Shown one piece after another: positions 1,944-18,079 of a DNA stretch of 64,000 nucleotides; position 1 is the stretch's first letter, and every line of letters starts with the position of its first letter. The DNA comes from a virus. Under the pieces are notes generated by a model, which was given only the letters and a program-made list of their open reading frames with translations, did not search any database and was not told the DNA's origin. The stretch lies in the IMG/VR virus record IMGVR_UViG_3300046542_000074, positions 1 to 64,000 of that record; one strand, given 5' to 3'. The translations under genes and the position numbers were made by a program.

Positions 1944-2189
1944 ATGGCTACTTTGGACATTCGTGAATTCAACGGTGATGCTGTAATTCATCAGATCATC
2001 TTCAATGAACCAGAGGATAAAGAAGGTGATGTGCAAGCTTATAAACTTACTTGTGGTGTGTACCAAGGAGACAAGTTTGTCAGTATCTATGATGGTGGTG
2101 ATGATTTCTTGAACATCAACTCAGAACAAGAAGCACTTGATTTGATCAAGGCACTGAATAAGGCAATTGAACTTCGGTGGGTTGACTAA
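1944..2189 (+). CDS. hypothetical protein, 81 aa
   Basis: The ATG after GGGAGGA is chosen over an upstream in-frame ATG. An acidic small protein with a beta-rich middle (YKLTCGVYQGDKFVSIYDGG) and a C-terminal helix. The stop overlaps the ATG of PRPP synthetase, so it is probably translationally coupled to it. Function unknown. Confidence 0.7.
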   Translation: MATLDIREFNGDAVIHQIIFNEPEDKEGDVQAYKLTCGVYQGDKFVSIYDGGDDFLNINSEQEALDLIKALNKAIELRWVD

Positions 2190-3037
2190 TGGACTTTGAA
2201 TTCAACGAAGGGTTGTATTACACAACTGATGACAACCCCAACCTTCGGGTTGGTGTACGTGAGTGGAAATTTCCAGATGGCTCAGTTGGTGTAGATATCA
2301 ATACCGGAAGTCAGGAAGTGTATTTCGGTATAAAGGAAGTGAAATTGTATGCACGAGGCTCTTTTGACCTGAGTGATAAGATTCTTGCAATCTTGTTCGC
2401 CACTGATGCACTGCGCCGACACTATCCATTTGCAAAGATTCATCTTGGTCTTCCTTACATTCCGTATGCCCGTCAAGATCGTGTGTGTAATGCAGGAGAA
2501 TCCTTACAGGTTAAAGTGTTGTGTGACCTGATTAACCAACAGAACTATGAGTCTGTACTGGTAGTTGATCCACACAGTTATGTTGCTAGTGCATTGCTTG
2601 ACCGTGTTGTGGTGATGGATCAATACGAAGTGTTTAAGAACCTTAAGAAAGACTGGTTCAATTGGACAATCGTTGCACCAGACCAAGGCGCAGTTAAGAA
2701 GTGTGAAGACTTCGCCAAGCGTGTAGGTGCTAAGGCTGTAGTTGGTTTCAGTAAGAGTCGTGAACTCAGCACTGGCAAGATTACGGGAATGAAGCCTCTG
2801 TTTGATATCAATCCAGATGAGAGTTACTTGGTCTTGGACGATATTTGTGATGGTGGTAGGACGTTCACAGAGTTGGTTGATTTCATGTCTCATTGTGGTG
2901 TGCTGGAGTTGGCTGTAACACACGGTATTTTCTCAAAGGGTGCAGAAGTTGTTACCCGACGATTTGACCGCGTTCACACCACTGACTCTTTCCAGTCTCA
3001 CAAAGACGGTGTAAATGTTCTTAAGGTACTACCATAA
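2189..3037 (+). CDS. prs: ribose-phosphate pyrophosphokinase (PRPP synthetase)
   Basis: Makes 5-phosphoribosyl 1-pyrophosphate from ribose 5-phosphate and ATP in the cytoplasm. Family landmarks are in order: YIPYARQDR near residues 90-98 (ATP flexible loop), VVDPHSY near 125-131 (metal/ribose phosphate region, DLHA in cellular enzymes), KSREL near 189-193 (catalytic flexible loop) and VLDDICDGGRTF near 215-226 (PRPP-binding loop). At 282 residues it is shorter than cellular enzymes (about 315), as seen in phage NAD clusters. PRPP is the co-substrate of the nicotinamide phosphoribosyltransferase two genes downstream, so the pair forms a metabolic unit. Assignment secure. Confidence 0.95.
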   Translation: MDFEFNEGLYYTTDDNPNLRVGVREWKFPDGSVGVDINTGSQEVYFGIKEVKLYARGSFDLSDKILAILFATDALRRHYPFAKIHLGLPYIPYARQDRVCNAGESLQVKVLCDLINQQNYESVLVVDPHSYVASALLDRVVVMDQYEVFKNLKKDWFNWTIVAPDQGAVKKCEDFAKRVGAKAVVGFSKSRELSTGKITGMKPLFDINPDESYLVLDDICDGGRTFTELVDFMSHCGVLELAVTHGIFSKGAEVVTRRFDRVHTTDSFQSHKDGVNVLKVLP

Positions 3038-3191: not shown

Positions 3192-4916
3192 ATGAAGCAA
3201 TTTGCACCACACGTAGTTGATATCTATAAAGTGAAACATCCTGACATGTACACCGAGGGAACTGATTTCCTCTACAGTAACTTTACCCCTCGCTCTGATA
3301 AGTACTTCAAAGGTGGTCGTTTGTATGACGGTAAGTTGGTTGTATTTGGTGCTCAAGGTGCCTTACGGGAACTGGTAGAACTGTGGACAGAATCGTTCTT
3401 CAACCAACCTAAGTCAAAGGTTGTTGCACGATATAAGCGTCGTATGGACAAGGCTTTGGGTGTGGGTGCGGTAAGCCCTGATCGAATTGCTGCACTGCAC
3501 GACATTGGTTATCTGCCACTTGAGATCCGCACTATCGATGAGGGTAGTCGTATTGGGATGAAAATTCCGATGCTAACTATTAAGAACACTATTCCTGAGT
3601 TCTTTTGGTTGGTGAACTACCTTGAAACTGCACTAAGCGCACTCATCTGGAAAGGAAGTACTAACGCTACTATTGCTTACGAATACAAGCGTCTGTGTAC
3701 TGATTATGCTGTGCGTACAGGCTCTGCAATTGAAACTGTGATGTTCCAATGCCATGACTTCAGTATGCGTGGTATGCCGGGGATTGAGGACAGTGCTCGT
3801 TCTGGTTCAGGCCACCTGACCAGCTCGTATGGTACAGACACCATTGGTGCAATTGATTACATTGAGGACTACTACGATGTAGGTCTTGATCTGGATACTT
3901 ACTTCATTGCTGGTAGTGTTGCCGCAACAGAGCACGCTGTTAGTAGTAGTAACATCTTGACTAGGGCTAAGCTTATTCAAGAGCGGCACCCTAGTATGTC
4001 GAAAGACGAAGTGTTGTTGCGTGCTGAGATTGGTTTCATGTTCCACTACATTACTCAGACTGTACCAACAGGGATTGCATCTTATGTTGCTGACACTTAC
4101 AACTACTGGGGAGTGTTGACTAAAGTTCTACCAGTGTTGAAAGATGAAATCATGGCGCGCGCCGGTAAATTGGTTATCCGACCTGACTCTGGTGATCCAG
4201 TACAAATTATTTGTGGTATGAGTCCGGTGCGTGGTGAGGACGGTAAAGCAATCAACTTCGAAAGTGAAGACGCTGCTTACGACTGGCTGGATGTTGGTGA
4301 TCGTGTCCGGGAACAACTTAACTCAGATTGCATCAAGATCGGTGGTGTGTTCTATGACTACAGCTCTACTGTCTACGACGATTACACTGAAGGCTGTGGT
4401 ATTGACATGGACGTGGTGTACCCATACGAGGTTGTTGCTGGTTCTATTCGCACTTTGTGGAGCATCTTTGGTGGTACTGTTAACACTAAAGGTTTCAAAG
4501 AACTGGATAGCCACATTGGTTTGATTTACGGTGACAGCATTACACTTGAGCGTGCTGATACTATTCTCAAACGGTTGGAAGAGGCAGGGTTTGCATCGAG
4601 TAACGTAGTGTTCGGCGTGGGTAGTTATACTTACCAAATGAGTTCACGCGATACCTTTGGTAATGCGGTTAAAGCTACAGCTACAAGTGTTAATGGTGAA
4701 TTCTTTGAAATCTATAAAGACCCGGCAACTGGTGACAAGTTGAAGAAAAGTGCTAAAGGTTTGCTGTATGTTGGCCGAGATGAAAACGGTGAATTCTATT
4801 CGGAAGACCAAGTGTCTAAAGAGAAAGAACAAACTGGGGAACTGAAGGTTCGATTTAAAGATGGTCAGTGGAGTAACCTAACCAACATCGAAGTAATTCG
4901 CCAGCGACTGAAGTGA
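3192..4916 (+). CDS. nadV: nicotinamide phosphoribosyltransferase (NAMPT/NadV)
   Basis: Converts nicotinamide plus PRPP to nicotinamide mononucleotide, the first step of the nicotinamide salvage route to NAD. The N-terminus (DIYKVKHPDMY, then NFTPRSDKYF) and HDFSMRGMPG near 188-197 match the family; F190 and R193 correspond to the nicotinamide-stacking Phe and phosphate-binding Arg. GTDTIGA carries the substrate Asp (D216), ATEH carries the catalytic His (H248), and IRPDSGDP (329-336) and YGDSI bind the ribose phosphates. Length 574 residues; human NAMPT is 491. RBS AGGAG. Last gene of the operon, followed by a terminator. No NMN adenylyltransferase is present in the window. Confidence 0.96.
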   Translation: MKQFAPHVVDIYKVKHPDMYTEGTDFLYSNFTPRSDKYFKGGRLYDGKLVVFGAQGALRELVELWTESFFNQPKSKVVARYKRRMDKALGVGAVSPDRIAALHDIGYLPLEIRTIDEGSRIGMKIPMLTIKNTIPEFFWLVNYLETALSALIWKGSTNATIAYEYKRLCTDYAVRTGSAIETVMFQCHDFSMRGMPGIEDSARSGSGHLTSSYGTDTIGAIDYIEDYYDVGLDLDTYFIAGSVAATEHAVSSSNILTRAKLIQERHPSMSKDEVLLRAEIGFMFHYITQTVPTGIASYVADTYNYWGVLTKVLPVLKDEIMARAGKLVIRPDSGDPVQIICGMSPVRGEDGKAINFESEDAAYDWLDVGDRVREQLNSDCIKIGGVFYDYSSTVYDDYTEGCGIDMDVVYPYEVVAGSIRTLWSIFGGTVNTKGFKELDSHIGLIYGDSITLERADTILKRLEEAGFASSNVVFGVGSYTYQMSSRDTFGNAVKATATSVNGEFFEIYKDPATGDKLKKSAKGLLYVGRDENGEFYSEDQVSKEKEQTGELKVRFKDGQWSNLTNIEVIRQRLK

Positions 4917-11101: not shown

Positions 11102-11353
11102 ATGTCAGTCTTCGCAACTATCGCTGTAGTGTGTACCCTTGCAACTTGCAGTGATTACGTTATCGACACGGCTCAAACAGTGACAGATGCGAACATAAAT
11201 ACACATGTTCAAGATGAGCGGTTTCTGTCGCTTTGGGGCGATGAAAAGTTGTTGACAGACTGGCTAGACGAATTTAAGATTGGTGAAACGGTTTTCGAGA
11301 TCGTTTCCCTTGAATTTGAAACTAAAGAAATAACTGAGGATGATGCGCCGTGA
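11102..11353 (+). CDS. hypothetical protein with hydrophobic N-terminus, 83 aa
   Basis: The first 16 residues (SVFATIAVVCTLATC) are hydrophobic and end in Cys, which resembles but does not match a lipoprotein box (Thr at -1). The rest is acidic. It could be exported or membrane-attached; not certain. Confidence 0.65.
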   Translation: MSVFATIAVVCTLATCSDYVIDTAQTVTDANINTHVQDERFLSLWGDEKLLTDWLDEFKIGETVFEIVSLEFETKEITEDDAP

Positions 11354-14454: not shown

Positions 14455-14633
14455 GTAAGCATTGGATACTGACCCGCGACCTGATGCAAACCATCATAAC
14501 CAACCTAGACACCAATCGAATGACACTCAAGGCTGCAAAGCTTTATTATCTGGCGTATGGTGTTGAGGTGAAAGGGAGATCAAAAGAGCAATTCATTCGG
14601 AACCTTTGCAAACTAGTAGATCAAGCCCCTTGA
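14451..14633 (+). CDS. hypothetical early protein, 60 aa
   Basis: Coupled by ATGA. Basic, helical (MTLKAAKLYYLAYGVEVKGR). Its TGA stop lies in the loop of the terminator that ends this unit, so a terminating ribosome would cover the hairpin. Confidence 0.65.
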   Translation: MSKHWILTRDLMQTIITNLDTNRMTLKAAKLYYLAYGVEVKGRSKEQFIRNLCKLVDQAP

Positions 14634-14648
14634 ATGGGGCTTTTCTTT
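14623..14648 (+). terminator. rho-independent terminator overlapping a stop codon
   Basis: AAGCCCC-TTGAAT-GGGGCTT then TTCTTTG. The TGA of the upstream gene is in the loop. Confidence 0.85.
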
Positions 14649-14662
14649 GTCTAAAATAAATG

Positions 14663-15397: not shown

Positions 15398-15448
15398 GCT
15401 TTCACACCAAGCCGAAAGGCTTAACCCTCCTGATAACGAGCAAAGAAA

Positions 15449-15964: not shown

Positions 15965-16219
15965 ATGGGAAAGACAATCAATATAACAACTTTGTCAAGC
16001 ACTCTTGACCTAGCAGAATGCACCGATGGCTTTTGGTTGTATGATAAGACCCGAGGCATGAATCTATCAATGCGTGCCAAGTCTGAACAGGCGGCATTTG
16101 TAGAAGCCTTGACCTATTATCAAGATCGTTTGTCAAGGGTAGAACGTGAATTAAAGGACTTGACTTCTAAGGTTGATGTATTCGTTTCTCAATTCACAGA
16201 TAACGAAGACGATGATTAA
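15965..16219 (+). CDS. hypothetical phage protein, 84 aa
   Basis: Starts 2 nt after the previous stop. FWLYDKTRGMNLSMRAKSEQ then AFVEALTYYQDRL is a pattern I recognise from small phage proteins of unknown function. The C-terminal third is a coiled coil with an acidic tail. Last gene of the early block. Confidence 0.78.
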   Translation: MGKTINITTLSSTLDLAECTDGFWLYDKTRGMNLSMRAKSEQAAFVEALTYYQDRLSRVERELKDLTSKVDVFVSQFTDNEDDD

Positions 16220-16241: not shown

Positions 16242-16267
16242 AGCCCCTTGAATGGGGCTTTCTTTTG
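16242..16267 (+). terminator. rho-independent terminator ending the early block
   Basis: AGCCCC-TTGAAT-GGGGCT followed by TTCTTTTG. Confidence 0.9.
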
Positions 16268-16297: not shown

Positions 16298-17164
16298 TAT
16301 TCAGTGCCATGCACTGGACAATATACGCTCTTGATCTTGATCGATCAAAAGACCACCACTAGGCTAACGCCTAGCACAAAACAAATAAAAAGAAAACAAC
16401 ACAATACAAAGCCTTTGCTTTGCTCTTGCCCTTTCTTCACATGGAACATGTGGAACAATTAACCACTTGAAAACAAGCCTCATATCAGGCACTTGTGCCT
16501 AGCCATACCCTATCCTGTACCCTGTACAGAACCCATCCTATTCAGTGCCATGCACTGTCCTATGCCCTCATATTCGTTTATGCAATAAACATCTAAGCCT
16601 TTAGTTTATTGGCTTTGCCAATGAGATACGCTCTTAATTCCTGAGCATCGCTCAGAATATCATTCTATTCTGTGATACTATACTTTTCCCCTTTGCGCAG
16701 TATACCGGAGGGATGCTAAGCAACTATCTCTAACTATCCCATATAATGGGATGAATGTTTATCGAATCTGAATAGATTCAAACTATTAATACCCTATCTT
16801 CGATAGGAAATATCAATTAGCATCTGCATTGCAGATAATGTACTATCTATGTCATAGGTGAAGTATCCGCTCCAATTCGGAGCGAGAATATTTATTTGAC
16901 AAACTCATCTATCTCTGATTCGCACCCTATATACAGGGTAGTGCGCACTTCGCATATTGGCTATTATGTTAAATCGATAGCCTAACTCACATCCCCATTC
17001 CAATGTCAAGCATTAACTCTCATTGAATCTCTCAATGGATAACCGATTCCTAATAGATAGATATCCCCTATCGGATTTCAGGATCTAATAGAGTGGGTCT
17101 ATCGGCCAGAGGCAGGGGCGTCAAGCCCTATTCCTGAGTAGCAGCATATATTGCCCAATATATG
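16298..17164. repeat. array of short perfect inverted repeats between converging operons
   Basis: No gene in about 900 bp. Perfect dyads include CAGTGC-CAT-GCACTG (16302 and 16543, within a 19-nt direct repeat), CTAGGC-TAAC-GCCTAG (16359), CAAAGC-CTTT-GCTTTG (16407), CACATG-GAA-CATGTG (16438), AGGCAC-TT-GTGCCT (16487), CTGTAC-CCT-GTACAG (16515), GTTTAT-GCA-ATAAAC (16576), ATTGGC-TTT-GCCAAT (16608), CTGAGC-ATC-GCTCAG (16641), ATCCCAT-ATA-ATGGGAT (16736), GAATCT-GAAT-AGATTC (16764), CCTATC-TTC-GATAGG (16793), ATCTGC-ATT-GCAGAT (16822), CGCTCC-AATTC-GGAGCG (16868), ACCCT/AGGGT (16924), CATTGA-ATCTC-TCAATG (17021) and CATATATTG-CC-CAATATATG (17145). Arms differ but geometry is constant, which argues for selected structure. 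Confidence 0.75.
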
Positions 17165-17256
17165 GGATTCTTGAGGTACACGGATTTCCAAGTAACTGAA
17201 ATCCAAGTTTGTAAAATTCGGGGAATTGGAATTTCCGGGGATTCAGTTTTCTACAG

Positions 17257-17284
17257 ACGAAAGAAAGCCCACACAAGGTGGGCA
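17257..17284 (-). terminator. rho-independent terminator of the minus-strand operon
   Basis: Read on the minus strand: GCCCAC-CTTGT-GTGGGC then TTTCTTTCG, just after the stop of the last minus gene. Confidence 0.85.
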
Positions 17285-17305
17285 AAGTCCGTGTATAGTG
17301 TTTTA

Positions 17306-18079
17306 TTATGCGGAAAAGGGTATCTCATGGGGACAAAAAGGGGACATTTGCTTCAGCCAACGTTTTACTGTCCTGTCTGTAACCCCAAGATGCTTCCCAA
17401 TATCTTTATATGTATAACCAGCATCCCTCAAACCCTTCGCCTTCAACTTAGGGTCAGCACCCCAACCACTTACCTCTTTGATGTGCTCAATATCCATTCT
17501 TTGAATGAGTGCCTGCGCACTTAGGTCTGAAATTTGCTCTGTCTTCTTGTCATCGCTCTCTTGAAGTGCTTGAATCTTCTGATCGATTGTCTGGAATACA
17601 TGGACAGCACCAAGACCTCTATTCAAAGTGGTGCTAGCCTTTACATCCCTCTTCAACTCACTCTTTGGATAGATGCCATTCCCTTCTATTGTGAAGTAGT
17701 CGTCATACTTGCGAAGTACGGTATCTTGGTAGTACCACTTATCATTATGCATCTGAGCTGCCTTGAGTTCGTCATAGTCCATGTTATGAATTACAGCAGA
17801 TTGTTTGATAGACTCACTTGGTCTGCAAGCCTGCTCTATCTGAATACCAAAGGCAGTAAGACTGAAGTCTTTCGACAGTCTTTCTCTTGTACTCATAGCG
17901 CCAAGTTGACGAAGGATGTCTTTCTCCAAACTCTTGGCTACAGCAAATGCCTTACCTTTGTTACCACTCTCTGCCTCCTGTACAAGTCTTTCGCTCATCT
18001 CACTCTGGATGGTTACGAGGTCTAGAGACTTCAAAACTGATTTCATTTGTTCAGGTGTTAGTTCTTCAACGTACAGCAT
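17306..18079 (-). CDS. putative DNA-binding protein with C-terminal HTH, 257 aa
   Basis: The N-terminal 200 residues are helical and unrecognised. Residues about 212-243 (GLRDAGYTYKDIGKHLGVTD then RTVKRWLK) are a clear helix-turn-helix of the resolvase/transposase-HTH type. Last gene of the long minus operon. Likely a regulator, or a protein acting at the hairpin array next to it; the second idea rests on position only. Confidence 0.75.
   Translation of the reverse strand: MLYVEELTPEQMKSVLKSLDLVTIQSEMSERLVQEAESGNKGKAFAVAKSLEKDILRQLGAMSTRERLSKDFSLTAFGIQIEQACRPSESIKQSAVIHNMDYDELKAAQMHNDKWYYQDTVLRKYDDYFTIEGNGIYPKSELKRDVKASTTLNRGLGAVHVFQTIDQKIQALQESDDKKTEQISDLSAQALIQRMDIEHIKEVSGWGADPKLKAKGLRDAGYTYKDIGKHLGVTDRTVKRWLKQMSPFCPHEIPFSA

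Follow-up and report, generated by a model that had tools for sequence, protein, structure and literature searches.

A conserved array of different short hairpins beside the probable packaging terminus of Plaisancevirus-like Pseudomonas phages

Results and Discussion

Why would gene-free phage DNA carry one short, perfect hairpin after another, each with a sequence of its own? The question is raised by positions 16298–17164 of a 64,000-nt window of viral DNA (positions 1 to 64,000 of IMG/VR record IMGVR_UViG_3300046542_000074; all coordinates are those of the window unless a genome is named). A preliminary description of this window, made from the letters and the open reading frames (ORFs), had proposed that the geometry of these hairpins is what is conserved and that they act at the level of DNA.

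The source phage is a Plaisancevirus-like Pseudomonas phage with a genome of 101,375 bp. By its terminase it falls close to SYP (76%), phiPMW (67%; genus Plaisancevirus), and vB_PsaM_M1 (63%), all of them Pseudomonas phages. It also has many uncultured relatives, whose complete-looking genomes span 87–107 kb. The collections searched hold few core-clade isolates, and our comparison set comprised the records of 13 uncultured relatives together with phiPMW and SYP, found via the terminase and an 83-aa early protein. The latter (11102–11353, plus strand) is conserved in all but one of these 13 relatives (12 of 13), turns up in 46 records of Pseudomonas phages, and is a good marker of the family. 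The helix-turn-helix (HTH) protein encoded beside the array retrieved no relatives when used as a query, and a DNA similarity search with 16298–17164 gave 0 matches among plasmids; its single phage match was short and fell in neighboring coding sequence. In most of the IMG/VR records G000–G010 the terminal redundancy is exactly 127 or 123 bp; these lengths look like assembler k-mer overlaps, so the contigs are probably complete circular assemblies. The window also encodes a ribose-phosphate pyrophosphokinase-like protein and a nicotinamide phosphoribosyltransferase (2189–3037 and 3192–4916, plus strand), an NAD salvage pair.

A dense hairpin array in gene-free DNA

How unusual is this density? 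Counting perfect arms of at least 6 bp around loops of 2–8 nt, the interval holds 20 dyads, compared with 1.65 ± 1.39 in dinucleotide shuffles (n = 300; maximum 7), and 10 of the 20 have a 3-nt loop where 0.27 would be expected. With overlaps removed, 18 dyads are left, with arms of 6–9 bp and loops of 2–6 nt (exactly 3 nt in 9 of the 18), against 1.15 in dinucleotide shuffles (n = 1,000; maximum 6) and 1.23 in order-2 Markov sequence (n = 1,000; maximum 5). Shuffled sequence thus does not reproduce the dense array that was first described. Any other 867-bp interval in the rest of the 101-kb genome contains at most 4 dyads.

The arms are mutually different, as had been noted, apart from a single hairpin, CAGTGC[CAT]GCACTG, that is present twice (16302 and 16543). 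REP, CRISPR, and attC arrays likewise consist of spaced short dyads, but theirs are copies of one sequence; because the arms here are unrelated, with only that one duplicate, we rejected these classes and simple repeats in general.

The setting also agrees with the preliminary description. Among ORFs of at least 80 aa, the gene-free region is bounded by one ending at 16219 on the plus strand and one at 17306–18079 on the minus strand, and converging terminator-like hairpins lie on both sides of the array (16242–16259 and 17267–17283). A 120-aa plus-strand ORF at 17162–17524, overlapping the minus-strand ORF, was judged spurious. A 34-bp sequence farther upstream (14624–14657, plus strand) is nearly the same (88%) as the terminator in front of the array. 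The adjoining minus-strand ORF encodes a 257-aa protein with a C-terminal HTH and a weak match, via the HTH only, to a terminase small subunit PHROG; similar HTH proteins adjoin the arrays of two relatives (G003 and G013). The array and its flanks read as follows, with loops in square brackets and no strand assigned to array hairpins:

16242–16262, plus strand: terminator-like hairpin AGCCCC[TTGAAT]GGGGCT with T-run, ending the plus-strand early gene block
16302–16316: hairpin CAGTGC[CAT]GCACTG
16331–16348: hairpin TTGATC[TTGATC]GATCAA
16359–16374: hairpin CTAGGC[TAAC]GCCTAG
16407–16422: hairpin CAAAGC[CTTT]GCTTTG
16438–16452: hairpin CACATG[GAA]CATGTG, which with its flank (CACATGGAACATGTGGAACA) can be read as two tandem parS half-sites (parS as in PMC4368675)
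16487–16500: hairpin AGGCAC[TT]GTGCCT
16515–16529: hairpin CTGTAC[CCT]GTACAG
16543–16557: hairpin CAGTGC[CAT]GCACTG, second copy
16576–16590: hairpin GTTTAT[GCA]ATAAAC
16608–16622: hairpin ATTGGC[TTT]GCCAAT
16641–16672: overlapping hairpins CTGAGC[ATC]GCTCAG (16641–16655) and CAGAATA[TCATTC]TATTCTG (16653–16672)
16736–16752: hairpin ATCCCAT[ATA]ATGGGAT
16764–16779: hairpin GAATCT[GAAT]AGATTC
16793–16807: hairpin CCTATC[TTC]GATAGG
16822–16836: hairpin ATCTGC[ATT]GCAGAT
16868–16884: hairpin CGCTCC[AATTC]GGAGCG
17021–17037: outlying hairpin CATTGA[ATCTC]TCAATG
17145–17164: outlying hairpin CATATATTG[CC]CAATATATG, past the inferred terminal repeat
17267–17283, minus strand: terminator-like hairpin of the minus-strand gene block

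Geometry is conserved and arms change with compensation

Is the array shared by related phages? In a whole-genome scan with shuffled controls, most complete relatives had a single 800-bp stretch with 8–17 dyads and no close second, located at the convergent junction of two early gene blocks. Isolates of the wider family show this arrangement in weaker form, and arrays are also present in PAK_P2 and KPP10. Felix O1 and Acibel004 have no array, and at the corresponding place PseuGes_254 and Boevelstad, both distant members, have few hairpins or none. The array is real and conserved, and it appears to be undescribed; our literature search found no paper on hairpins at phage terminal repeats.

The arms differ from phage to phage, and what is kept, in line with the original proposal, is geometry: arms of 6–7 bp, a spike of 3-nt loops, and a spacing of 28–32 bp. 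Across 11 arrays, loops of 3 nt were observed 62 times against 2.6 expected, those of 4 and 5 nt about 20 times each, and those of 8 nt or more near background, which is expected of hairpins rather than of sites bound by protein dimers. Successive hairpin centers cluster at 28–32 bp, with 56 of 164 distances within 26–34 bp and only 5 of 164 within 17–25 bp. Arms of orthologous hairpins also change together: compensated changes occur in 56 of 651 pairs versus 15 of 658 in a control with slid partners. These counts are not independent events, since each pair of genomes enters once per direction and certain genomes appear repeatedly. Neither refuting outcome named in the preliminary description, a shuffle-like density or uncompensated arm changes in relatives, was borne out. 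Examples are GTATGC[GGTA]GCATAC/GTATAC[GGTA]GTATAC and ATGGGC[ATA]GCCCAT/ATGTGC[ATA]GCACAT. Between orthologs, loops differ in sequence as well as in length, and a few are inverted (AAG/CTT, AC/GT, CAA/TTG, and GA/TC). Triloops of the form GNA/TNC are enriched over shuffles; because the enrichment is seen with every closing pair, it is only suggestive of action as DNA under the GNA rule of stable DNA mini-hairpins.

The array probably adjoins the packaging cut

What occupies this junction in relatives whose genome ends have been mapped? Terminal repeats defined with PhageTerm measure 526 bp in phiPsa374 (PMC9796965) and 628 bp in PseuGes_254 (PMC11512268). Their left ends read TATACTA|AGCG and TATGTTA|AGCC, respectively, and the right ends of both GTT|AAAC. 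Within the clade of the source phage, the deposited SYP genome has an exact terminal redundancy of 351 bp lying exactly between TTGGCTA|AGCC and GGGGCTATT|AAGCC, the two cut motifs, consistent with a direct terminal repeat of the T7-like kind. The same motifs recur in the source phage at GATGCTA|AGCAAC (16718/16719) and GGGGCGTC|AAGCCC (about 17122/17123), which would make its repeat about 404 bp long; by the same motifs the repeat would be 430 bp in phiPMW and 453 bp in relative G002. The 127-bp redundancy of the source record looks like an assembler k-mer overlap. The predicted features are:

16712–16721, plus strand: predicted site, GATGCTA|AGC, at which the left end of the direct terminal repeat is cut (16718/16719); motif as at the phiPsa374, PseuGes_254, and SYP ends, 11 genomes aligned
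16719–17122: inferred direct terminal repeat, about 404 bp, placed from the motif and not from reads of the source phage
17115–17128, plus strand: predicted right terminus of the repeat, GGGGCGTC|AAGCCC (in relatives GGGGC(G/A)TT|AAACCC)

Since these cut motifs are those of the mapped relatives, 16298–17164 would be the border of a terminal repeat. The array would cover about 420 bp leading up to the left cut and run on into the first part of the repeat. When 11 genomes were aligned on the left cut, hairpins peaked from −500 to −100 and tailed off into the repeat. The array thus probably adjoins the place where the packaging enzyme cuts the DNA, and among the roles that had been listed for it, a packaging site matches this position. 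phiPsa374, PseuGes_254, and related Vandenendeviridae share the syntenic junction, the TA|AGC motif, and a repeat of a few hundred base pairs with the source phage, but the Plaisancevirus-like clade has a far greater density of hairpins, and the sources describing their ends mention no hairpins. The scarcity of hairpins in PseuGes_254 and Boevelstad implies that the array is not required for terminal-repeat packaging in general.

Other features were seen at these termini. By reading rather than by profile, HNH/NUMOD-type homing endonuclease-like genes lie directly beside the terminus in five relatives (G003, G005, G006, G009, and G010), and in PAK_P4 an HNH endonuclease is annotated at the homologous region. 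phiPto-bp6g (JN175269.1), deposited as a complete 26.5-kb genome, contains the terminus region of this family of ~100-kb phages and is therefore probably a fragment.

Is the pairing maintained in DNA or in RNA?

Selection for pairing in one RNA strand should let G.U mismatches persist more often than A.C on that strand, and no such bias was found. Under the assumption that near-perfect dyads are decayed or divergent array members, their mismatches were 41 G.T and 45 A.C; orthologous pairs gave 27 and 25, and the segment behind the promoters (left of the cut, core clade) gave 33 and 47. Triloops of the form GNA are as frequent as their complements (43 and 39). Because G.T and A.C mismatches are equal, pairing appears to be maintained at the DNA level and not in one RNA strand, and the symmetry of mismatches and loops favors selection or drive acting on DNA.

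Promoters in relatives nevertheless weigh against a DNA-level account. Most core-clade relatives have strong sigma-70 promoters (TTGACA-18-TATAAT class) directed into the array, in every case on the same strand, and none comparable points out of it. On the strand that these promoters would transcribe, the linkers between hairpins are G-poor, and purine-N-purine triloops outnumber the reverse 30:17 left of the cut. RNA folding z-scores range from −3 to −8. In PAK_P3, gp112 overlaps the homologous hairpins and belongs to the early transcribed block. The only gene for which published RNA-seq of this phage (PMC4933390) found no transcription is the former gp113; it falls in the gap beside those hairpins, at the predicted end of the genome, in keeping with the packaging-terminus reading. 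The array could therefore give rise to a structured noncoding RNA: a host RNA polymerase promoter behind the upstream terminator would yield an early transcript of about 450–500 nt, whose 10–12 stem-loops and unstructured linkers might soak up an RNA-binding protein of the host or of a defense system. Against this, besides the lack of G.U excess in near-perfect or orthologous hairpins, both strands fold about equally, an Rfam scan at the gathering threshold found tRNAs only and no known RNA family at the array, and the source phage and G001 have no canonical promoter into it. We regard this RNA as unlikely, though the promoters make it the main rival. Of the earlier claims, the DNA-level role is accordingly favored by strand symmetry and opposed by the promoters and G-poor linkers of relatives, and the suggestion that no mRNA includes the block is open to doubt in relatives, where promoters read in and the PAK_P3 interval is partly transcribed, its terminus part being silent.

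Could palindromes instead accumulate without selection? At a terminus that is often single-stranded, template switching may perfect chance quasi-palindromes, leaving compensated palindromes as a mutational by-product. Strand separation is expected at this site, and unrelated arms, loops of variable length that are sometimes inverted, and strand symmetry would all follow. Such a process does not predict the sharp 28–32-bp spacing, in which closer pairs are rare, the grouping of many hairpins at a single place in each genome, the GNA/TNC preference over shuffles, or persistence of the array across diverged genera, and we consider it improbable.

The preliminary description had also pointed to phage N4, whose virion RNA polymerase uses promoters with a 5–7-bp stem and a 3-nt loop. 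N4-type single-strand promoters, or single-strand replication initiation sites, would fit that geometry, with 10 triloop dyads in the interval and GNA-type loops enriched. Here, however, there are many hairpins in an array and no conserved promoter sequence, the flanks sharing at most 0.23 bits per position, and loop orientation is strand-symmetric. A T7-type RNA polymerase (PF00940) gave no match in nine genomes, in a search whose controls also gave none. The comparison with N4 fared poorly, and we give this reading very little credence.

dif-like and parS sites beside the array

What else lies within the inferred repeat? The window contains one site resembling those used by the host XerCD recombinase:

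16947–16974, plus strand: dif-like XerCD site ACTTCGCATAT TGGCTA TTATGTTAAAT; 19 of 22 arm positions as in Pseudomonas-type dif, XerD arm 11 of 11

It has the 11-bp arms around a 6–8-bp center that define dif and is unique in the genome, where the next best candidate matches 16 positions (consensus checked against PMC6199493 and gammaproteobacterial genomes). In 9 of 11 genomes a dif-like site lies at a near-constant distance, +207 to +283, from the left cut. Individual positions, in the coordinates of each genome, are SYP 134, phiPMW 20942, G002 10163, G005 5656, and M1 16961. Being inside the inferred repeat, the site would be carried directly repeated at both ends of linear virion DNA. As in dif itself and the phage sites that use it (CTXphi and XacF1 inoviruses), a 28-bp site has an intact XerD arm and a recognizable XerC arm, which suggests use of the host recombinase; unlike those inoviruses, this is a terminal-repeat tailed phage with the site inside its inferred repeat, and the central 6 bp differ from host dif.

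The sequence TGTTCCACGTGGAACA, a parS of P. aeruginosa (PMC4368675), occurs perfectly in or beside the arrays of several relatives, while the source phage has only half-sites. In 3 of 11 genomes parS lies at +24 to +55 from the left cut. Perfect or one-mismatch copies around the terminus were seen at 294, 963, 4266, and 7655 in SYP, at 15422, 20515, and 20735 in phiPMW, and at 389 in phiPsa374. SYP also has several Fur-box-like words (GAGAATGATTATC) between hairpins (201–290 and 690–910); a Fur-box decoy was rejected, as these words are weak and found mainly in SYP.

Might the array then be a landing or decoy site for host DNA-binding proteins, each palindrome a different operator? Perfect parS and dif-like sites do lie within the same few hundred bases, and the source genome, searched with positive controls, has no ParB or tyrosine recombinase domain of its own. 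Fixed operators, however, would not drift with compensation as these arms do, and assorted operators would not show a 3-nt loop spike; such a role is very improbable.

A proposed shape-read element of the packaging terminus

We propose, with a probability just short of one in two (about 0.48), that the array acts in cis, as a DNA element of the packaging terminus that is read by shape. It would lie across the cut at the left end of the direct terminal repeat, and its dyads would fold into hairpins or cruciforms once the duplex is opened or underwound, by transcription from the upstream promoter in most close relatives and also by strand separation as the repeat is cut and duplicated from the concatemer. 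The hairpins would be recognized by shape and not by sequence, and may mark the region or hold it open for terminase; alternatively, they may restrict strand displacement at the edge of the repeat. Different arms would stop neighbors from mispairing or recombining. As to a partner, no resolvase or terminase small subunit could be tied to the hairpins; a RuvC-like match was sub-threshold and confined to one relative, and endonuclease VII and T7 endonuclease I were not found in searches where controls gave no match either.

The concatemer junction of phage T7 has hairpin ends, short repeat arrays, and a promoter, phiOR, near the right end. The phages studied here resemble T7 in having a terminal repeat with special sequence and a nearby promoter at its border, but where T7 has repeated short words and one hairpin turn-around, they have 10–18 different hairpins of conserved geometry.

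A broader proposal, which we hold to be rather doubtful, is that these phages define a new class of cis-element: a shape-coded array of different DNA hairpins that governs terminal-repeat formation beside a host dif, and often a parS, within the repeat, where host XerCD could circularize the incoming linear genome or resolve concatemers. How terminal repeats are duplicated from concatemers is an old open question in phages. With a conserved, compensated array next to the likely cut site of phages that grow in laboratory P. putida, a role for DNA secondary structure is directly testable. If they function, host dif and parS sites carried within the terminal repeats of lytic tailed phages would tie the way these phages manage their genomes to the machinery for chromosome segregation and dimer resolution in the host.
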